The position numbers and the translations under genes are program-made. From positions 1-35,923 of the IMG/VR virus record IMGVR_UViG_3300035670_000711: a stretch of DNA of 35,923 bases. One strand, written 5' to 3'. Position 1 is the first letter of the stretch. The number at the start of each line of letters is the position of its first letter. The notes beneath the pieces were generated by a model, which searched no databases, was not told the origin of the DNA, and saw only the letters and a program-made list of their open reading frames with translations. Source of the stretch: a virus. Positions 4,198 to 34,986 of this stretch are shown in pieces.

Positions 4198-4200
4198 GTG

Positions 4201-4229
4201 TTGCATTTTGCTTTTTTTCGGGATACACT
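4201..4229 (+). promoter_or_regulatory. Promoter of recombinase 2
   Basis: TTGCAT (4201-4206) and TACACT (4224-4229) have a 17-base spacer containing a T-run. The transcript would have a leader of about 110 bases containing a hairpin at 4252-4281 before the ATG at 4348. Confidence 0.55.
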
Positions 4230-4251
4230 GTACTCATGCAACTGGAACAGA

Positions 4252-4281
4252 AAAGCCCCGCTGCGTCAACAACGGGGCTTT
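4252..4281. terminator. Terminator-like hairpin in the recombinase 2 leader
   Basis: A perfect 9-bp stem AAAGCCCCG / CGGGGCTTT has a 12-base loop. The leftward side has four T, the rightward side only three. It could insulate the repressor promoter from leftward read-through or attenuate recombinase 2. Confidence 0.55.
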
Positions 4282-4347
4282 CCCGATACCCTGCGACGGT
4301 TTGCAGAATACCTATTAGCACAAGCGAGTATACAGAAAGGTCACACA

Positions 4348-5487
4348 ATGAGCAACAGCAACTCTTTGATGATTCCGGATAACAATCCCTGGCTCAACTA
4401 TTTCGATCGCGCTTCCGCGCTCGAATCCGTTTTCGCGCACATCGCCGCGCTGCCCAGTTCCCGCACCACCACCGAGCAGCACACCCTCCGCGTATATAAG
4501 AGCGGACTCGCCTATTTCATTGACTGGATCGGCGAAGCCCTCCCTACCCCGTCAGCCGTACAGAAGTACATCGCACACCTCACGCTGCAAAAAAATCTCA
4601 AATCCAGCACCGTGGGCAGCAAGTACCTGGCACCGCTGCGCCTCTATCTCAAAGCCCTCGCCGCGCAGCACATCCCGTCCCGGCTCGATGGCACCCCCCT
4701 TAATACCGAAGATCGTCATTTCATCGTCGATGCACGCGAACAGCTTCGCGCCGCCGTTGATGTTCCCACACCACGCGATGAGACATCCAGCAACCTGCCT
4801 CCCCTCTGGCAGCACGGCAATCGCCTCACCCTGCGCCAGATCAACCAGCTCTATCAGAGCTGCGATCCCAACACCATCGCCGGCAGCCGCGATCTGGCAA
4901 TCCTCTATATCGGATTCACATCAGCACTCCGCATCGCCGAAATCCAGCGCATGACCCTTTCCAGCATTCGCCCCGGCAGATCTGCCTACGAAGTACACGT
5001 CCGCGGCAAACGCTCCAATGTCGATCCCGTTCCGCTCGATAACACCGCCTATCAGCTCATCATGGAATACGTCGCCATCTACAATGCCGATCTGCTTCCC
5101 GATGATCCGCGCTACATTCACCGCGATACCCCGCTCTGGCAGCCCCTCCAGCACAATGACACCCCGTTCCCGATTGGCTACCAGGGCATGGATCCAAAAC
5201 GCGGCATGTCTTCGCAATCCCTCCGCATGATGCTGCGCAAACGTTGTCAGCAGGTGCAGGAATACGACAGCGCCATGCCCGTGATCGCGCCGCACGATAT
5301 GCGCCGCAGCGCCGCCGCACTGGGGCATGAAGCAGGCATGGACTATCCCGAATTGCAGCGCCTCCTGCGCCATCGCAACATGGCAACCACCTTCGGCTAT
5401 ATCGGCAAAGCGCCCGATCTCTCCAAGTCGATCATCTCACAGATGCCTGGCGTCAACTTCGTCATCCCGCAGCGCCGCGTAGGCTAA
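4348..5487 (+). CDS. Tyrosine recombinase 2, complete catalytic set
   Basis: This 379-residue XerC/D- or phage-type recombinase starts at ATG 4348 behind AGAAAGG; the frame is open from 4198 but has no better start. The N-terminal core-binding domain spans about residues 25-135 and the catalytic domain about 155-365. All six expected positions are visible: R195 (SALRIAE), K221 (RGKRSN), H316 and R319 (APHDMRRSA), H342 (LLRHRN) and Y351 (TFGYIG). Unlike recombinase 1 it has the canonical second histidine. It could be the integrase/excisionase partner or a resolvase that keeps circular copies monomeric. It converges on the late operon's last gene, with GC-rich repeats between. Confidence 0.9.
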   Translation: MSNSNSLMIPDNNPWLNYFDRASALESVFAHIAALPSSRTTTEQHTLRVYKSGLAYFIDWIGEALPTPSAVQKYIAHLTLQKNLKSSTVGSKYLAPLRLYLKALAAQHIPSRLDGTPLNTEDRHFIVDAREQLRAAVDVPTPRDETSSNLPPLWQHGNRLTLRQINQLYQSCDPNTIAGSRDLAILYIGFTSALRIAEIQRMTLSSIRPGRSAYEVHVRGKRSNVDPVPLDNTAYQLIMEYVAIYNADLLPDDPRYIHRDTPLWQPLQHNDTPFPIGYQGMDPKRGMSSQSLRMMLRKRCQQVQEYDSAMPVIAPHDMRRSAAALGHEAGMDYPELQRLLRHRNMATTFGYIGKAPDLSKSIISQMPGVNFVIPQRRVG

Positions 5488-22170: not shown

Positions 22171-22842
22171 TCACAACCCGTACCCCCACTTTTGCAGGAA
22201 CTTTCCGCGGTTCAGATCCGCCAGCGTTGCTGCTGACGGGGTTGTCGGATGCTCATGCCGCAGCCCCACATTCCCCACTGAGCGAATACTCATGCCCTTC
22301 ATCCGTGCCTGAAAACACAGATCAACATCCTCATAATAATTCGGGTTGAACTGTTCATCGAACATACACCCGGCAGCAAACACATCCCCCCGGATCGCGC
22401 ACCATCCCCCCGACACATAATCAATATCATCAGTGGCAGCCACCGTCAGACCATCACGCTGTACCCGCCGCCCTTCCACGCCGCAAATGCTGTACATCGT
22501 CCATAGCGGATCAATCAGTTTCGGCAGCCACCCGGCATCGAGAACCTCAATATCATCATCCAGATACACAATCGCTAGCCGCTCATCTGGATGCCCGTAG
22601 TCGTTGATGATGCGCTGCGTCAGTGCCTTGCGTCCACCGGCACACCCCAGATTCTCCGCGCTATGCAAAATGTGCAGCACGGGCACATGATAATATGGCT
22701 TCGCATGATGGATCAGCCCGCCCTGCGTCAGCACATGCACCCCGGCAACCCGCCCCCATACGCTCTCCCAGAACAGATCAGATAGCAACCGGTCGAGCAT
22801 CGCCTGCTTGCCCATCGTAAGAATCGCAATGTGAATCTCCAT
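22171..22842 (-). CDS. GT-A (family 2-like) glycosyltransferase
   Basis: The 223-residue enzyme starts at ATG 22842, sharing a base with the MuF stop (TGATG). The longer frame has no ribosome site. The N-terminal half shows the nucleotide-sugar fold: EIHIAILTMGKQAM, SAENLGCAGGRK and the metal-binding DxD in IVYLDDDIEVLD (94-97). The C-terminal motif NYYEDVDLCFQARMKGM is the usual acceptor/base region of family 2 enzymes (ED-hD-x-R-x-x-x-x-G). It is the second glycosyltransferase in the virion operon. The acceptor is unknown; capsid, tail or host surface are possible. Confidence 0.9.
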   Translation of the reverse strand: MEIHIAILTMGKQAMLDRLLSDLFWESVWGRVAGVHVLTQGGLIHHAKPYYHVPVLHILHSAENLGCAGGRKALTQRIINDYGHPDERLAIVYLDDDIEVLDAGWLPKLIDPLWTMYSICGVEGRRVQRDGLTVAATDDIDYVSGGWCAIRGDVFAAGCMFDEQFNPNYYEDVDLCFQARMKGMSIRSVGNVGLRHEHPTTPSAATLADLNRGKFLQKWGYGL

Positions 22843-27259: not shown

Positions 27260-27791
27260 CGCCAAGCTCCTCAGCTATCGCCACATAATCAATCTCATTC
27301 TTCCGGATCGCTTGCACCGCTTCACCACGCCAATCCAGCACTTCCATCTTGTCCGTAAAAAGCTTGTGGAATCGCCCAAGCTGCACCAGCGCACTCTGGG
27401 CATCATGCAGCTCCACCTCCTGCTCAATGATCGTACCCTGCTCGCTGACCACCTTCTTATATTTCCATTTGCGGATCAGGTGCATTTTCCCGCGTTCCCG
27501 CATCCGCGAAACATCCGGCGTGCCGTACTTATCCAGCACATCATCAAACGTCCCCCGCGCATGCTCACTCAGCAGATAAAGCACCTCCGCGGCACTCATC
27601 GCGCTCTCGCGTAATCGCGTTTCGATCGCATCCCGTATCGCAGGTTTTCTGAGGTTTTCGGTGGCGATTGAGGCAGCCACCACCCGATCTTTGCATTTAT
27701 ACCCCGCAGCAATTGCCGCATCCGTGCCATTCCGCCCACAGATGAAATACTGATTGACAAATTCCGCCTGCTTATTTGTCAGCTTTGGCAT
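27210..27791 (-). CDS. terS: Terminase small subunit
   Basis: The 193-residue protein starts at ATG 27791 behind GAAGGGCGG. Residues 1-65 are the DNA-binding part of the Terminase_2 family: LTNKQAEFVNQYFICGRNGTD then AAIAAGYKCKDRVVAASIATEN, with the familiar 'A...AGY.......A...L..P.I...I' pattern. The rest is an oligomerisation helix and tail. It recognises packaging sites and feeds DNA to the large subunit. It overlaps the triple winged-helix gene by 13 bases. Confidence 0.93.
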   Translation of the reverse strand: MPKLTNKQAEFVNQYFICGRNGTDAAIAAGYKCKDRVVAASIATENLRKPAIRDAIETRLRESAMSAAEVLYLLSEHARGTFDDVLDKYGTPDVSRMRERGKMHLIRKWKYKKVVSEQGTIIEQEVELHDAQSALVQLGRFHKLFTDKMEVLDWRGEAVQAIRKNEIDYVAIAEELGDDLASQLFREAGVPVP

Positions 27792-28516
27792 AGCCGCCCT
27801 TCTTTCAGTGCCACGTCCAGCACCGCCCGCACCTGCACATCCACCAGCCGATAGCCCCCATTCCGCGCATGCGGACGCTCAATCAGCCCGGCGCGTTCCA
27901 GCGCATGCAGGTGATAGCGCACCGTCCGCGCAGGCATATCCAGCCACCCGGCAAGGATCTCGCTGTGCAGCAGCATTGAACGCCCCGCCAGATCTGACAT
28001 CAGATGCAGCAAATGCAGACGCGCCGCAGATAAATCCGCACACATCTGCCGCGCACCAGCCAAAGCAACCGCCTCGCGTGCCCCATGTGTCGCATCATAG
28101 CCGCCCTTCTTGCCGTTCACGCGCCGCGCCATGCCCAGCCGCTCCAGCTTCCCCAGGCGATATTGCATGCGCCGCACACCATACCCCGTCACATCTGCCA
28201 GCGCTGCGCCAGTCTGCCGCCCTCGCTCCAACAGCAAGCGCAATATTTGCATATCCAATCGGTCGAGCTTTCGCGCTGTGATTTGCACAGTCCGCTCTCG
28301 ATCCGCCAGCGATTGCACAAACGGACTCGCACTATATCCGGCATTCCGTCCCGCCGGACGATAAATCCGCCCGGCATCTTCCAGCCGCCGCAGATAATGC
28401 CGGATTGTCCTGTCCGGCACCTTCAACGCATTTTTCAAATCACGCGAACGCACCAGCCCGGCATGCTCGCGAATCAATCCATATACCCGCCTGTCGAATG
28501 GAGATAGCTCGCTCAT
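27779..28516 (-). CDS. Protein of three tandem winged-helix domains
   Basis: The 245-residue protein starts at ATG 28516 behind GAGG (the frame has a GTG two codons earlier). It consists of three related winged helix-turn-helix units at about residues 6-63, 86-142 and 165-224. Each has an RT(I/V)R(H/Y)-type recognition helix (the second is VRRMQYRL), then a 'LE.(A/L)G' turn and a wing ending RNAGY, KKGGY or RNGGY. It is the first gene after the early terminator and overlaps terS, so it could regulate late transcription or bind packaging-site DNA. I know no phage family with this triplication. Confidence 0.85.
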   Translation of the reverse strand: MSELSPFDRRVYGLIREHAGLVRSRDLKNALKVPDRTIRHYLRRLEDAGRIYRPAGRNAGYSASPFVQSLADRERTVQITARKLDRLDMQILRLLLERGRQTGAALADVTGYGVRRMQYRLGKLERLGMARRVNGKKGGYDATHGAREAVALAGARQMCADLSAARLHLLHLMSDLAGRSMLLHSEILAGWLDMPARTVRYHLHALERAGLIERPHARNGGYRLVDVQVRAVLDVALKEGRLCQS

Positions 28517-28602
28517 TCCCACCTCGTATCGTCTGCCATCTCATCAATCCTAGCGTAATCGCGCAACCTCATTGGCAAAATCCCCCACTTTAGTGACATA
28601 AA

Positions 28603-28788: not shown

Positions 28789-29090
28789 TTCTTCACCTCA
28801 CAAATATTCGTGATCCCCAGTGCCGGGACCCGCTTCACCAGCGGAGCAGGAATGCCCTCCTGCCCCGGCGCACGCTTCCAATATCGGTTCACCTTGCCCA
28901 CCAGCCGCACCCGATCGCCGGCTTTCAGCGCCAGCTTCCGGAATCGATTCGTATACGGAATATACACATGATCACGGAATACCACGCCATCTTCACGGCA
29001 CACATCATTCAGCAGCATCTGGGCGCCATTTTCACTGGCGAATATCGCTAGAAATGCGCAGCGCTTCCCGATTTCTCGCTCCCAGTTCAT
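28782..29090 (-). CDS. Small OB-like protein of the replication region
   Basis: The 102-residue product starts at ATG 29090 (ATGA overlap). The sequence is beta-rich with KAGDRVRLVGKVNRYWKR, a typical OB-fold strand-turn-strand, and aromatic/basic residues that could bind single-stranded nucleic acid. It lies beside the DnaQ-like exonuclease. A single-strand-binding or replication accessory role is inferred, not proven. Confidence 0.65.
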   Translation of the reverse strand: MNWEREIGKRCAFLAIFASENGAQMLLNDVCREDGVVFRDHVYIPYTNRFRKLALKAGDRVRLVGKVNRYWKRAPGQEGIPAPLVKRVPALGITNICEVKKW

Positions 29091-29395
29091 GAGTCTGCCA
29101 CCTGAATCGCAATGACTTCGACATAATTATCCCAGGTGGATTTCTCGATGATCATCCATCCTTGCTGCTCGATGAATCCTTTGATAGCCTCTAGCAGCTT
29201 ATCCGTGCATTCGTGTCCATCTGCCAGCACAACCAAGATCCGGCGCTCAATAATGGTTTCCATCACTCTGACAGAAATCCCTAAATTGCTGATCTTTATG
29301 GTTTCCATCACTCTGACAGAAATCCCCAAATTGCTGATCTTTGCCAAGCCCTTGATAATGCCGTAAAGCTCCATCACATAGTCTCTATGTTTCAT
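29087..29395 (-). CDS. Hypothetical protein with an exact 15-residue tandem duplication
   Basis: The 102-residue protein starts at ATG 29395, overlapping the exonuclease stop (ATGA). Residues KISNLGISVRVMETI occur twice in a row, produced by a 45-bp in-frame duplication. The C-terminal part (RRILVVLADGHECTDKLLEAI, then YVEVIAIQVADS) looks like a small alpha/beta fold. The function is unknown. The duplication is very recent, since the copies differ at one base. Confidence 0.78.
   Translation of the reverse strand: MKHRDYVMELYGIIKGLAKISNLGISVRVMETIKISNLGISVRVMETIIERRILVVLADGHECTDKLLEAIKGFIEQQGWMIIEKSTWDNYVEVIAIQVADS
29253..29342. repeat. 45-bp in-frame tandem duplication
   Basis: Units 29253-29297 and 29298-29342 differ only at one position (T/C, at unit base 30), a synonymous change. 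Confidence 0.95.
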
Positions 29396-30255
29396 GGCGT
29401 AATCTCCGCCATCTGCCGCAAACACCGCAGCGCCGCCTGGCAATCCCCCACCGCGCTATGATCCCCGCTCGGAAGCCTCTGCCATCTGTACGATTCATGA
29501 TACCGGTTCCATTCGCCGTACCATTGCGCGTACCACTTCATCAGACACGCACTATCCGGCTTCCACTTCGGCAGCGTCAGCCCGCCCCGCGCACATTCCC
29601 GATGGATCATGTCAAAATCAAAATTGAAATTGTAGATCAGCACCGTCTTATTCTGCGTGATCTCGCGCAGCCTCAGATAAGCAAGTCCGAAACCTGGCGC
29701 ATCTTCTAGCATCTCCAGCGTGATCCCGTGCACTGCCTGCGCCCCCGGCGCGATCAGCCCTCTCGGCTTAATCCGCTGATTCAGCAGCACATTCCCCGCC
29801 AGATCAATCACCCCGATTTCGATGATCTCCCCGTTCAGATCCGTCGTCTCCGTGTCAAGAATTAGCACCTCACCAGCCGGACGCGCCAGCATCCCCCGTG
29901 CCCAATCGCGTGCTGCTTCCTCATCGATGCAGCGATTGCACAGCGCACTCTCTGTCATCGCCTGCGCCGCCTTCCGCGTGATATTGGCGATATAGCCGCC
30001 GCATTTCCCGCAGCGCATTTCGACCTTCTCCGCCATATATCGCGCCTTCTCCATCGCCGCGATCTTCTCCGGCGATGCCTCGTACTTCACAGCCTCCGCC
30101 TTCAAATACAGCGGATAATCCTTTTTCCGCCTGATATCGTGCTTCCATCCATGCACCGGCTGATCCTTCGCCAGCCGGAACCCCATCTGCCGCAATTGTG
30201 TTTTTGTGTGCAATCCCTCCGGGATCGCTGTCCATGATGTGTATGTAATTTTCAT
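29392..30255 (-). CDS. DnaQ-like 3'-5' exonuclease with zinc knuckle
   Basis: The 287-residue enzyme starts at ATG 30255 with GAGGTG upstream. Residues 128-283 form a DEDDh exonuclease: Exo I LILDTETTD (D134, E136), Exo II YNFNFDFD (Asp near 213), Exo III HSAVGD (H266, D271). The N-terminal 120 residues carry a CGKC...CNRC four-cysteine zinc site (82-109) and a charged substrate-binding-like region (TKTQLRQMGFRLAKDQP). It could proofread or trim DNA ends during phage replication. No phage DNA polymerase is present, so it would have to work with the host enzyme. Confidence 0.9.
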   Translation of the reverse strand: MKITYTSWTAIPEGLHTKTQLRQMGFRLAKDQPVHGWKHDIRRKKDYPLYLKAEAVKYEASPEKIAAMEKARYMAEKVEMRCGKCGGYIANITRKAAQAMTESALCNRCIDEEAARDWARGMLARPAGEVLILDTETTDLNGEIIEIGVIDLAGNVLLNQRIKPRGLIAPGAQAVHGITLEMLEDAPGFGLAYLRLREITQNKTVLIYNFNFDFDMIHRECARGGLTLPKWKPDSACLMKWYAQWYGEWNRYHESYRWQRLPSGDHSAVGDCQAALRCLRQMAEITP

Positions 30256-30264
30256 CCCTGCACC

Positions 30265-31440
30265 TCATTCAAATCGAATTTGTATCGGCATTCCTGCCGC
30301 CGTCTCAAAAGATTTCGCAATCACGCGCCGCAACCGCCCATCGCACATCTCTCGCGCATACGAATTCGCAGCCCGCACCACATACACCCCGTCATCAAGC
30401 CCGCCATACGCGCAGCGCTTCACGTAGCTCGTCCAGCTCGTCCAATCAAGCTGATGCTCCAGCTGCGTCATCGCCCGCTGAAAAACATCCTGCCCCACTG
30501 GTTCGCAAGGGCATGGCGTGCCATGCCCCTCATTCCCCTCTCCACGCAATGGGGGGATCACGTCCCCCTCTTGCGTAGGGGCATGGCGTACAATGCCCGT
30601 CTGTGCCATCCCCATCGAGGCTTCTGCCTTCTTCAGCGCACCCCGCAAATACGCCAGATACGTCTTCCGCAGCTTGCCCGCATCACGCGCCGCTTGCGCC
30701 GCCTGCACCGTCTCGCGCACCTTCTCATCTCCCAGAGCGGCATACCGATTCGCTTCCGCAGCACTTAGCCCTTCGCTTTGCAGCACTTCAACAGCATTCA
30801 CAGAAAACGACTTATCAAAACCGTCTGTTATCTGTTCTGTTGAAAGTTCTGTTGCAGATGTTGTTGTTATTTCTGTTAATGGAATCTGCGCTAGCGATAC
30901 TCTCGGCTTTTCTAGCGATACTCCCACCTGCGGAAATGGTATCGGTGCCTTCGCTGGCGATACTCGCCGTACCATTTCACACAACGTCACGCGCACCATC
31001 TCATACGCAATCTGCATCTGATCTGCAATCGCCATCACAAAGCGATCCGCCTCAATCCGGAAGTGAAGCACATTTTCGCCCTGTGCCCGCTCGACCCACA
31101 CTACCAGCCCAGCAGCTTCCAATCGTGCACGCCGCCGCTTGTTGTAAATCGCGCTGCGCGTCAACCCCGTCCTCTGTTGCCATTCGCTCGCACGCCGCCA
31201 CACCGCACGATCACCCCGGATCGAGCGCGGCAGCCAGTATAAAATGTGACGCAGCATCGTCGCTGCAATCACATCGCCCGCGCATAAATTCACGAATAAC
31301 GCATCCACACTACGGATCGCACCCGCATCTCGATACGGCATCATCAGCGCCTGCAACTTCGGCATCCAATCCGCCGGTGCCTCATACACATACTCGCTAA
31401 ATCGCGGAGCACCCCCCGCGAACTCTCGTCTCACAAACAT
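30265..31440 (-). CDS. Replication initiator with C-terminal DnaA-N-like domain
   Basis: The 391-residue protein starts at ATG 31440 directly behind GAGGTGGGGA. Residues 45-130 are a winged-helix replisome-organiser-type domain (TMLRHILYWLPRS, SEWQQRTGLTRSAIYNKRR, LEAAGLVVWVERA). A low-complexity middle follows. Residues 318-391 resemble DnaA domain I: FQRAMTQLEHQLDWTSWTSYV, then VYVVRAANSYAREM and PIQIRFE. DnaA domain I recruits the host helicase, so this suggests an initiator that loads DnaB. Two features are embedded in the gene: an AT-rich block with three 21-bp-phased repeats, and host-like repeats encoding the linker (about 285-316). Lambda O has the same origin-in-gene arrangement. Confidence 0.85.
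   Translation of the reverse strand: MFVRREFAGGAPRFSEYVYEAPADWMPKLQALMMPYRDAGAIRSVDALFVNLCAGDVIAATMLRHILYWLPRSIRGDRAVWRRASEWQQRTGLTRSAIYNKRRRARLEAAGLVVWVERAQGENVLHFRIEADRFVMAIADQMQIAYEMVRVTLCEMVRRVSPAKAPIPFPQVGVSLEKPRVSLAQIPLTEITTTSATELSTEQITDGFDKSFSVNAVEVLQSEGLSAAEANRYAALGDEKVRETVQAAQAARDAGKLRKTYLAYLRGALKKAEASMGMAQTGIVRHAPTQEGDVIPPLRGEGNEGHGTPCPCEPVGQDVFQRAMTQLEHQLDWTSWTSYVKRCAYGGLDDGVYVVRAANSYAREMCDGRLRRVIAKSFETAAGMPIQIRFE
30506..30598. repeat. Cluster of host-like repeats inside the initiator gene
   Basis: Two type-B palindromes (30506-30529 and 30573-30598) flank a type-A element (about 30534-30556). The block is translated in frame as a linker containing HAPTQEGD and PPLRGEGNEG between the central helices and the DnaA-N-like domain. 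Confidence 0.75.
30788..30965. other. Candidate replication origin: iterons plus AT-rich block
   Basis: Three copies of CT(A/G)GCGATACTC start at 30891, 30912 and 30954, i.e. 21 and 42 bases apart and on the same helix face. A partial inverted copy (TATCGGTG) lies between. Next to them, 30801-30880 is only about 34% GC and contains five CTGTT repeats, a likely unwinding element. Because the spacing is also a multiple of three, a protein repeat (VSL/VSP) is an alternative explanation. Confidence 0.55.
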
Positions 31441-31448
31441 TCCCCACC

Positions 31449-32108
31449 TCAAAACAATGATTTTTGTGTCGGTTTTTGCATCAAATCCGGATGATCATCA
31501 TCAACAGCATATTGCAGCAATTGCTTCGCATTCATCGTGTTGAATTCTTGCCCCTGATACCAATCCAACCACCGTTCCTCTGGTCCTTGATACGGCAGAC
31601 CCAACATCAAAAAGAGCATCGTCTCATCCCGGATTGCAACCTTTTTCCCGTAATGCTCTTTACCGCTCATATAGCTCGTGATCCGCCCGTATAGTTCGTG
31701 GAATCGCAGCGCAGACTTGCGCCATTTCAACTGACTCATCACATAGTTATTTGCATCGCTATGACCGGTTCGCAGCCACAGCATATATCCCCAATTGATC
31801 GGAGTGGCGAGTGACAATTGCACGCGCATGTCCAGATACACCATGCCCCGGTACAGATCGCCCCATCGCGGCAGATTCCCATACAGCGCCTTGCTCACGA
31901 TATTGCGCCGCACCCAACCATCCGTAAGGCTATGCATCTCTTCAAAACTCTTCGGGATCGCGACAATCTCAATACCATCGACCACCAAAGCGCCTCGCCG
32001 CAGGCTTCCCGCGATCTCGATCTGAGTGCAATGATCCACCAGCAAATCAATCATATTCCGCGCAATTGCTAGAGCTTTCTTTCGATTGCTATAATCAACG
32101 CTGCTCAT
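31449..32108 (-). CDS. PolX-like nucleotidyltransferase with altered active site
   Basis: The 219-residue protein starts at ATG 32108, overlapping the parB stop. The fold signature of the polymerase X palm is clear: IEIAGSLRRGAL at 31-41, a later YLDMRVQL (D93), GYMLWLRTGHSDANNYV, and the typical small C-terminal helix region. In active enzymes the helix-turn GSxRRG is followed by a (G)DhDh pair; here the aligned residues read D44-G-I-E47, so one metal-binding Asp is Gly and the other Glu. The third Asp (D93) remains. It may be a non-catalytic or altered-specificity member. It lies between parB and the initiator, so a role in replication or repair is likely. Confidence 0.75.
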   Translation of the reverse strand: MSSVDYSNRKKALAIARNMIDLLVDHCTQIEIAGSLRRGALVVDGIEIVAIPKSFEEMHSLTDGWVRRNIVSKALYGNLPRWGDLYRGMVYLDMRVQLSLATPINWGYMLWLRTGHSDANNYVMSQLKWRKSALRFHELYGRITSYMSGKEHYGKKVAIRDETMLFLMLGLPYQGPEERWLDWYQGQEFNTMNAKQLLQYAVDDDHPDLMQKPTQKSLF

Positions 32109-33888
32109 CACGTACCGCCTGGTCGATTTCTGCCCATCTTTTCAGGCATCCTTCAATCTCGTGAAGCATCGCCTCAAATAGATTCGCTACGCTCTCATAT
32201 TTCTCTTGCAGCCCCGCCTCAACAGCCTCGCGTGACTGACCCTGCGCTACACGTTGAATCTGATCAATGGACATCTGTCCAATGACAGACATCCACATCA
32301 CAGCACGCTCATGATCCATCAGCAGCCCCATTTGCCGGATCTGCTGCAACATCGTCTGCATACGTTTGTCCTCAATCAATTTCCCATCTGCCACCGAAGA
32401 AGGAGTAGCAGATGCCGATGGGAATGCTGGCTGCCCTTGCACCAGCGTCAATCGCTCCGGCGCAAACGACCATTTCTTTCCGAATCCATCTACCACATGC
32501 ACCCGATTCTCCAGATATCCGCACACTTCCCCGATCCAGCGCTTGCTGATCCCATCGAACGTTTCCACCTTTGCCTTCATAGGAAAACGCTCCTTCAAAT
32601 CATCGTTGCTTACCTTCGCCGGAAATGGATTGATCTGCGGACGAACATACACAGGTTCATCATTCTCATTCCCCAAAGGGTCTAGGGGTGAGCTTGCTTT
32701 CCCATAATTCGCCCGCGCCGCGCTCGGAATCGCCCCTTCTTTGTTCCCCTCTCCACGCAGTGGGGAGGGGCTAGGGGAGGGGATGCTTTCATCAAGATGC
32801 GTTCCAATTGGAACGGTTCTTGCGTCATTTTCTGGTGCAGATGCGTAACGGTCGTTACGCATCTTTGATGCGAAATGTCCACTCACAGCCTCACGCAACG
32901 CACTTTCAACATCCCCATCTGCGTTCAAAATCTGCCGAATTTCATGCACATCCAACTTGCGAATATCCCGCATAAAATTCTCAGACCAATCGTATTGATC
33001 TCCCAGATCCCACAACCGGTTATCGATCTCGTGATCACCGGTCATCCGGAGCAGCGCACGGTACTGGCGCATCTGAGTAGTACTTATTGTCAAAGTCCGC
33101 TCAAATTCTGGTGCCATCCCATAGGGAATGGGATGCAGATTGCCATCCGCCACCTGCGCAAACCACCCGCGATTACATCCCCCCGGCACCACTAGCGCCC
33201 CCCACGGGTCATAAGGCGGATCTTGCACGTCCTTCCGTGCTAGAATCAGCAGCTTCGCGAACTGCCGCGCCTTGCTGATCGCGTTCAGCTCTGCCTGGTG
33301 GAAATTCTCCGCCGCCTGAATCTTCGCCAGCTCCCATTCAGAGACCTTCGCCACCTGCGCCGGAATCTTCAGCCACTTCGCATCATCAAGCACCAGCATC
33401 AGCAGATGAAATGCCGTCCATCGCCGCTCACCGTAGATGATCCGGTAATCGTGCGCGTTCGTCTGAATCACGCCAATCGGTTGCTTCAGCCCCACATCGC
33501 GGATCTGTGCCGCCAGATTGACCACCCGCAAGAACTTCTGAAGATCCGCATCCTGCACCTCGTACAGATCGCGTGTAGTCTTCTTTTCCTTGCCCCGTAG
33601 CATCGCTTCCACCGGCAGCGTGTACTTCTGCTCCAGCGAACGGATCCAGCGCGGCAGCAGATCCCCCAGTGCATCCGGATTCCCGTCCCAATCGCCCCGG
33701 ATCTCTCGCGGGATGATATTGCGTGGCTGCGTCACATCCGCCCAGATCTGCATAATCGGCAGCTTGCCACTCTCGACCTTTCCGGCATCCAGCGCCGCGA
33801 AGATGCTGTCATCGTACGTCCCGAACGGCTGTTCACCCTGCTCGCTGCGATACTCCGCCGCAGCTTCGTCAAATCGTTTCTTAGTCAT
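32095..33888 (-). CDS. parB: ParB-like partition protein, large
   Basis: The 597-residue protein overlaps the parA stop by 8 bases. Residues 110-215 contain the ParB N-terminal domain: LAAQIRDVGLKQPIGVIQ, GERRWTAF (153-160, the CTP-binding arginine patch) and AENFHQAELNAISKARQF (193-210), the usual 'ENxxR..L...E.A' helix. A long helical middle that should hold the DNA-binding part follows, then a repeat-derived linker (about 368-412) and a C-terminal helical dimerisation-like domain ending at 597. It is larger than plasmid ParBs, with about 100 extra N-terminal residues. A 26-bp palindrome within the gene (32839-32864) could be its own binding site. Confidence 0.85.
   Translation of the reverse strand: MTKKRFDEAAAEYRSEQGEQPFGTYDDSIFAALDAGKVESGKLPIMQIWADVTQPRNIIPREIRGDWDGNPDALGDLLPRWIRSLEQKYTLPVEAMLRGKEKKTTRDLYEVQDADLQKFLRVVNLAAQIRDVGLKQPIGVIQTNAHDYRIIYGERRWTAFHLLMLVLDDAKWLKIPAQVAKVSEWELAKIQAAENFHQAELNAISKARQFAKLLILARKDVQDPPYDPWGALVVPGGCNRGWFAQVADGNLHPIPYGMAPEFERTLTISTTQMRQYRALLRMTGDHEIDNRLWDLGDQYDWSENFMRDIRKLDVHEIRQILNADGDVESALREAVSGHFASKMRNDRYASAPENDARTVPIGTHLDESIPSPSPSPLRGEGNKEGAIPSAARANYGKASSPLDPLGNENDEPVYVRPQINPFPAKVSNDDLKERFPMKAKVETFDGISKRWIGEVCGYLENRVHVVDGFGKKWSFAPERLTLVQGQPAFPSASATPSSVADGKLIEDKRMQTMLQQIRQMGLLMDHERAVMWMSVIGQMSIDQIQRVAQGQSREAVEAGLQEKYESVANLFEAMLHEIEGCLKRWAEIDQAVRDEQR
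32671..32782. repeat. Two host-like type-A repeats inside parB
   Basis: CCCCAAAGGGTCTAGGGG (from 32671) and CCCCTCTCC...GGGGAGGGG (32745-32782) are both in frame and encode the linker SPLDPLGNEN and PSPSPSPLRGEGN of ParB. Confidence 0.75.
32839..32864. promoter_or_regulatory. 26-bp palindrome, candidate parS
   Basis: Perfect 12-bp arms AGATGCGTAACG and CGTTACGCATCT surround a 2-base centre. It sits inside parB, encoding residues 342-350, between the DNA-binding part and the linker. No canonical parS (TGTTTCACGTGAAACA-type) is seen elsewhere. Confidence 0.55.
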
Positions 33889-34678
33889 GAATCACCCCTA
33901 ACACTCGATCAACCAGCCCCCACAGATACCCGTTCGTCTCCAAATCGGGTGCCGCGTACATCACCGATTCCTGCAACAACTGCGCTTCACTGACAGCGAT
34001 CCGCTTCGGCACCGGCTCCCAGATCTGATCCCCGTACGCATCGATCAGCGTCTTCAAAACGTGCTGGTGCAGCTTCGTCCGCGGATCGTACTTATTCGGC
34101 ACAATCCCCATCAGCCGCGCCTTATCGCGCCCATTCCGCAGCGATTGCTCCCGTACACCCTCGATATGCTCCAGCGCCGATTTCAGCCCACCATACGCGC
34201 TCAGCGGTTCCGGATCCGTCGGCACCAGAAACCAGTCCGTCACCAGCGCGATCGCATCATGCAGCGTGCTCGCGCTCGGTTGCGTGTCGATGATGCACAC
34301 GTCGAACACCCCGTCGATCTCAGCCATCCGCAGCGCCAGGCTGCTCACAATCCCCTGTAAGCGCGTACTGGTCGGGATTCCCCACGTCTCGCTGTTCCCG
34401 GCGACAATGTATAGGCTCTCCGGGTGCCGCTCTGCCGGTGGCTTGCTGATCAGATTCTTCGTCGGCATGTAATCGTCCGAATCCTTATCATTCCGCTTCA
34501 CCCAGTTGTAGAAGCTGGAGCGCATCGGGATTTTCATGTTCTTCGTCAAATCACCCTGCCCATCGGCATCGATCAGCAGCACGCGCTTCCCGCGCATTGC
34601 CATCCCTGCACCGAGGATCCCGGCGAGCGTGGTTTTCCCCACGCCCCCCTTTTCGTTGTAAATACAGATCGTTTTCAT
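33881..34678 (-). CDS. parA: ParA-type partition ATPase
   Basis: The 265-residue protein starts at ATG 34678 with GGAGAG upstream; the frame continues to 34837 but the extra part is a shadow of the upstream gene. It has the deviant Walker A motif KGGVGKTT at 10-17, A' motif LLIDADGQGD (34-43) and Walker B CIIDTQPS. Without an N-terminal helix-turn-helix it is a Soj/type Ib-like ParA. It would move DNA by ATP-dependent binding to the nucleoid, driven by ParB. Immediate coupling to parB (8-base overlap) makes a complete partition pair. Confidence 0.93.
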   Translation of the reverse strand: MKTICIYNEKGGVGKTTLAGILGAGMAMRGKRVLLIDADGQGDLTKNMKIPMRSSFYNWVKRNDKDSDDYMPTKNLISKPPAERHPESLYIVAGNSETWGIPTSTRLQGIVSSLALRMAEIDGVFDVCIIDTQPSASTLHDAIALVTDWFLVPTDPEPLSAYGGLKSALEHIEGVREQSLRNGRDKARLMGIVPNKYDPRTKLHQHVLKTLIDAYGDQIWEPVPKRIAVSEAQLLQESVMYAAPDLETNGYLWGLVDRVLGVIHD

Positions 34679-34986
34679 TTGGCTACTCTCCGTTGTGATA
34701 AGGCGCTTTCTGCACGCCTCAACCCTTCGCTTGTTCTGGAATCGATGACGGCTTGATCCGCAGTCCGATACGCCACCAGCCCCCGCCCCGTCATCCGCAC
34801 ATAGCTGATCGCCCCTTCCCGCTTGATCTCGATCCACTCGCGCTTGACGAGCGATGCCACCATTGCGCGATTAGCCCCATCCGGCACCGCCACAAATTCA
34901 TTCTTGTGATCGTACAGAAGCCCCAGCAATTGCATGGCATGCCACGAAATCGGCTCTTTATTCTTCCGTGGTCGCCCGCGCCTCAT
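34675..34986 (-). CDS. Small winged-helix protein upstream of parA
   Basis: The 103-residue protein starts at ATG 34986 (ATGA overlap) and is itself coupled to parA by ATGA. It begins MRRGRPRKNKEP, an AT-hook-like basic stretch, then a winged helix (WHAMQLLGLLYDHKN, GANRAMVASLVKREWIEI, wing GAISYVRMTGRG). It could be the partition regulator or centromere-binding accessory often encoded with ParA, or an early transcription factor. No exact family is assigned. Confidence 0.72.
   Translation of the reverse strand: MRRGRPRKNKEPISWHAMQLLGLLYDHKNEFVAVPDGANRAMVASLVKREWIEIKREGAISYVRMTGRGLVAYRTADQAVIDSRTSEGLRRAESALSQRRVAK

Follow-up and report, generated by a model that had tools for sequence, protein, structure and literature searches.

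A predicted lambda O-type replication origin within a phage initiator gene coding for a C-terminal DnaA domain I

We present a predicted replication origin of the lambda O type situated within the initiator gene of a virus genome (IMG/VR record IMGVR_UViG_3300035670_000711), the whole stretch of which, 35,923 bases, was analyzed and is referred to here as the window. The original prediction had placed an origin in this gene; its sequence signature is confirmed, and function as an origin is very probable, at a rough probability of 0.85. That a winged helix binds the iterons, that the strands open, that a helicase is recruited and that the site acts as an origin are inferred. We also favor, with clearly less assurance, a helicase-recruiting step mediated by a DnaA domain I at the C-terminus of the initiator. 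Origins of the lambda type are known as such, but in the literature that we searched their pairing with an initiator carrying the helicase-recruiting domain of DnaA appears to be new; this search covered open-access papers and yielded no report of a phage initiator with a DnaA domain I.

The virus record displays a 127-base direct repeat at both ends, and hence the genome is probably circular, with 35,796 bases. It codes for tailed-phage terminase, portal, head and tape-measure proteins along with an integrase and a parA-parB pair. One of the nearest terminases is a 66% match in an Anaerolineaceae genome (L098), which makes a host from the Chloroflexota probable. The presence of the integrase gene (4198-5487, plus strand) and parA-parB (32095-34837, minus strand) in the same virus genome makes both integration and plasmid-like maintenance possible.

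Table 1. Positions in the window of the predicted origin, the parts of the initiator gene and the adjacent partition genes
Feature	Position	Strand	Basis or description
ParA-like partition gene	33881..34837	-	PHROG 164, E 5.4e-37
ParB-like partition gene, upstream of initiator	32095..33888	-	Pfam ParB_N, E 4.4e-9; PHROG 3264
Gene of the O-like replication initiator (395 aa; called with a TTG start)	30265..31452	-	PHROG 9773
N-terminal winged-helix region, aa 52-145, presumed iteron-binding	31018..31299	-	PHROG match, AF2, Foldseek
Iteron 1, GAGTATCGCCAGCG on coding strand	30952..30965	-	includes the 12-mer at 30954-30965
Iteron 2, GAGTATCGCTAGAA on coding strand	30910..30923	-	includes the 12-mer at 30912-30923
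Iteron 3, GAGTATCGCTAGCG on coding strand	30889..30902	-	includes the 12-mer at 30891-30902
AT-rich block, presumed unwinding element	30804..30883	-	34% GC; A-rich on the coding strand, with five copies of AACAG
C-terminal DnaA domain I, aa 320-395, presumed helicase-recruiting module	30268..30495	-	phmmer, AF2, Foldseek

The likeness of the initiator to the O-like initiators of PHROG 9773 ('replication initiation O-like'; profile match, E 9.5e-11) is limited to the winged-helix region, with the linker, the helical part (which is common to L019) and the DnaA domain I lying outside it. In the AlphaFold (AF2) model the core of the winged-helix region has pLDDT values mostly of 82-93, and its Foldseek neighbors, at weak E-values, are winged-helix regulators. 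On the coding strand the winged helix is followed successively by the iterons, the AT-rich block, the helical part and the C-terminal domain. As predicted, the repeats and the AT-rich block both lie entirely within the initiator reading frame. The prediction had further spoken of three 12-base repeats at 21- and 42-base spacing, and these are borne out by exact copies: the 12-mer CTAGCGATACTC occurs at 30891-30902 and 30912-30923, and CTGGCGATACTC at 30954-30965, in steps of 21 and 42 nt. They are located in the middle of the gene, about 490-560 nt from its start, and their dyad symmetry is weak, with on average 4 of 8 positions paired. A fourth 12-mer with one mismatch, isolated at 29040-29051 (minus strand), is probably a chance occurrence. 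The lowest-GC 80 nt in the vicinity of the iterons match the 80-base block of about 34% GC that had been noted, and the five copies of CTGTT ascribed to it are found at 30825, 30832, 30837, 30849 and 30873. A reading of its A-rich triplets as a DnaA-trio was considered and set aside, the protein having no AAA+ domain.

The repeat cluster stands out against both the genome and its own coding constraints. We scanned the whole window for clusters of 14-mers with at most two mismatches on either strand within 130 nt, a width and mismatch limit picked after seeing the window and then used unchanged on relatives and controls; the initiator cluster, with a score of 39, is the only one with a score of at least 36. 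Among 240 Markov segments, each 1.2 kb long, none attained this score. When synonymous codons were shuffled within the gene, so that its codon counts and the encoded protein stayed the same, the maximum score was 28 and none of 400 shuffles reached the observed value. Likewise, synonymous shuffles predict a GC content of 0.51 for the 70 nt past the last iteron, whereas the observed content is 0.37-0.39, as low as in none of 1000 and none of 500 shuffles. The codons are unusual for this genome: in the repeats GTA, which makes up 11% of Val codons, occurs three times and CTA, at 8% of Leu codons, twice, and ACA, at 19% of Thr codons, is used throughout the AT-rich block. The iterons and the AT-rich region are thus not explained by the amino-acid sequence or by codon usage. 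GC skew, which had been put forward as a check, did not support the site: after detrending, the skew is lowest at 2448 and highest at 22251, and with nearly all genes on one strand it is uninformative here.

Protein searches of phages, plasmids, viral contigs and genome contigs recovered no initiator homologue close enough for the window iterons to be aligned. Relatives were reached by two routes, via the terminase and via the C-terminal domain, and genes were included if they coded for a DnaA domain I or adjoined a gene for a DnaC/IstB-like loader. This gave ten initiator genes: that of the window and those of L097, L127, L128, L129, L130, L120, L126, L010 and L119. In all ten, the linker that follows the winged helix contains a repeat cluster, each with a sequence of its own (e.g., GGTCACAGGCGACC in L097, ATTGCAGCAC in L130 and GTCAATTTGAACC in L126), and such a cluster was seen in none of 12 control genes, including the O-like genes without domain I of L019, L113 and L116. 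Seven of the nine relatives outscore all 100 of their synonymous shuffles with at least three copies; L128 does so with only two copies, and L130 is marginal (5/100). Iteron dyads are clearer in L130, L128 and L097 than in the window. Where the domain is fused on the C-terminal side, the end of the last iteron falls 38-47% of the way along the gene, and GC content after the iterons falls below the synonymous null in nine of the ten genes, the exception being L126. A separate scan of viral contigs for the paired window iteron brought up L005-L008, of which three were rejected: L005 and L006 for peptide repeats of the Pro-Ser-Asp-Thr and Pro-Ser-Gly types and L008 for a non-coding repeat.

The spacing of the repeats in the relatives is mostly 19-33 nt and mostly not a multiple of three (steps of 22/43/22 in L097, 39/23/23/23 in L119, 22/23/21 in L129 and 53/31/33 in L010), and hence the copies fall in different reading frames. 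Moreover, the related initiators of L010 and L126 (38% identical over 223 aa) have an iteron core in common, CAAATTGAAC / TCAATTTGAAC, which they read in different frames, the encoded residues being QIE, SKLN or VNLN. The out-of-frame repeats and this common core favor, for the family, the earlier suggestion that the bases rather than the residues are conserved, a comparison made on the relatives and not on the window's own iterons.

These observations bear directly on the possibility that the repeats are merely a short protein repeat, VS(L/P), that is situated in a flexible linker, was multiplied by local duplication and has no role at the DNA level. All three window iterons, unlike those of most relatives, share one codon phase, being 7 and 14 codons apart, and such a repeat would be compatible with the window data taken alone. 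Nevertheless, the copies match at synonymous sites with the use of rare codons, synonymous shuffles never attain the observed score, the adjoining AT-richness is also seen at the synonymous level, and repeats at the corresponding place in the relatives are out of frame; we accordingly judge a protein-level explanation highly improbable. We consider it just as improbable that the repeats are operators for control of the initiator gene by its own product or by a repressor, with the origin elsewhere. Initiators often autoregulate via iterons, and the binding step would leave the same sequence signature; however, the site is in the middle of the gene, far from its start, nearly all relatives have an AT-rich block after the repeats, and no better origin is found among the other repeat clusters of the window.

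Somewhat less improbable, but still unlikely, is a partition site (parS/centromere) for the nearby ParB that happens to lie inside the initiator gene. The parB and parA genes are just upstream of the initiator, and a ParB-like gene also precedes the initiator in L128 and L130 and, by eye, in L119. Yet repeats of the same design are present in records without a ParB_N match (G002, the genome of L010; G455, of L127; and G012, of L097), some of which are fragments; conversely, L113 and L116 have ParB directly upstream of an initiator gene devoid of iterons. An adjoining AT-rich block would not be expected of a parS, and no parS of the chromosomal type was found in the window. The lambda O-type origin remains the reading that we prefer.

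The C-terminal 76 residues of the initiator match chain B of 4TPS (4tps_B) in a phmmer search (E 0.0096) and are 35-36% identical to DnaA of Anaerolineae genomes, and no Pfam DnaA_N match was listed for the protein. The AlphaFold model of this domain has a pLDDT of 96.4; in a Foldseek search with it 4TPS is the best match (TM 0.91, E 5e-6), followed by the helicase loader DciA. The alignment given to AlphaFold held true DnaA sequences, and the model is hence not independent of the assignment, whereas the phmmer match is. A KH fold is common to DciA and DnaA domain I (PMC9912922). By sequence, model and fold search the C-terminus is a DnaA domain I, with the same fold over the full domain as in the Bacillus subtilis structure 4TPS and the Anaerolineae DnaA. 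Unlike in DnaA, it forms the C-terminal end of a winged-helix initiator and is accompanied by neither the AAA+ nor the box-binding domains. In Escherichia coli, DnaA domain I contacts DnaB through Glu21 and Phe46 (PMC5448010); as we read the alignment, these positions are occupied by Ser and Tyr, as in Anaerolineae DnaA, and the DnaB interface is therefore not directly readable from the sequence.

We propose that copies of the O-like protein would bind the three iterons through the winged helix of their N-terminal part, probably all from the same side of the DNA given the steps of 21 and 42 nt, and that this binding would strain and open the adjoining AT-rich block. The C-terminal DnaA domain I might then recruit host DnaB to the opened DNA, either directly or with a host loader, standing in for the loader-binding part of lambda O and with no handover to a phage loader such as lambda P. 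No gene of the DnaB or IstB/DnaC families was matched in the window, a P-like loader outside the latter families being a further possibility, and the initiators of L010 (in G002) and L119, which are without domain I, have a P-loop loader encoded next door (IstB-like in G002). These two loader-linked cases, in records that are possibly fragments, together with the want of a loader-family match in the window, suggest domain I as a replacement; that it takes over from the loader-binding part of lambda O is the economical reading.

Lambda O itself has its origin, with iterons and then an AT-rich region, within its gene and comprises an N-terminal DNA-binding part, a flexible linker and a C-terminal part for helicase recruitment (PMC6022878). 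The window resembles ori-lambda in having its candidate origin inside the initiator's own gene, with iterons and then an AT-rich region, and the claim that it copies the lambda O arrangement holds for the order of winged helix, iterons and AT-rich block. It differs in that lambda has four iterons with hyphenated dyads of 18 bp as against three repeats with weak dyads, and an AT-rich region of 39 bp as against a longer block; further, the C-terminus of lambda O binds the phage loader P, whereas that of the window protein is a DnaA domain I with no loader found. We therefore file the system as a variant working like the lambda origin rather than as a lambda O/P system.

A DnaA domain I is also found in seven other initiators of mobile elements or phages, after the linker in L097, L120, L127, L128, L129 and L130 and at the N-terminus in L126. 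The domain carried within L120:1159-2292 shares 86% identity with a host DnaA encoded by a different genome sampled from the same class, and the one within L126:487-1728 shares 77% with the DnaA that its own genome encodes (L125). These identities and the fusion at opposite ends suggest that the two are recent, separate captures; a tree built on so short a domain is weakly supported. It is an evenly balanced proposition that phages and related elements with hosts of the Chloroflexota type have repeatedly captured the host DnaA domain I and fused it at either end of O-type initiators. Were it so, they would have a means of calling in the host helicase that needs no phage loader, from initiators with self-contained intragenic origins. 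If domain I indeed recruits DnaB, the N-terminal domain of DnaA tethered to another origin binder would be enough to start replication, and such proteins would offer a test of the share of helicase loading that is due to DnaA domain I. More generally, the ten initiator genes with their built-in candidate origins provide iterons, DNA-binding domains and helicase-recruiting modules that can be compared and swapped, and they point to a rule for locating origins in uncultured phages: out-of-frame repeats in the linker of the initiator gene, followed by AT-rich DNA.

Apart from the predicted origin, a palindromic element, approximately GTAGGGGCATGGCGTGCCATGCCC, is dispersed in the genome (5531-5555, 11751-11776, 30503-30528 and 30573-30598, with a partial copy at 32744-32765). 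Two of its copies are in the initiator gene, between the helical part and the DnaA domain I, and its exact 20-mer is present in just one of ten related-class genomes (G403). A 247-aa protein (27779-28522, minus strand) seemingly contains about three winged-helix units and is matched by many HTH families. Finally, a near-perfect (98%) 45-bp tandem duplication is seen at 29253-29342, inside a small ORF (29087-29443, minus strand).
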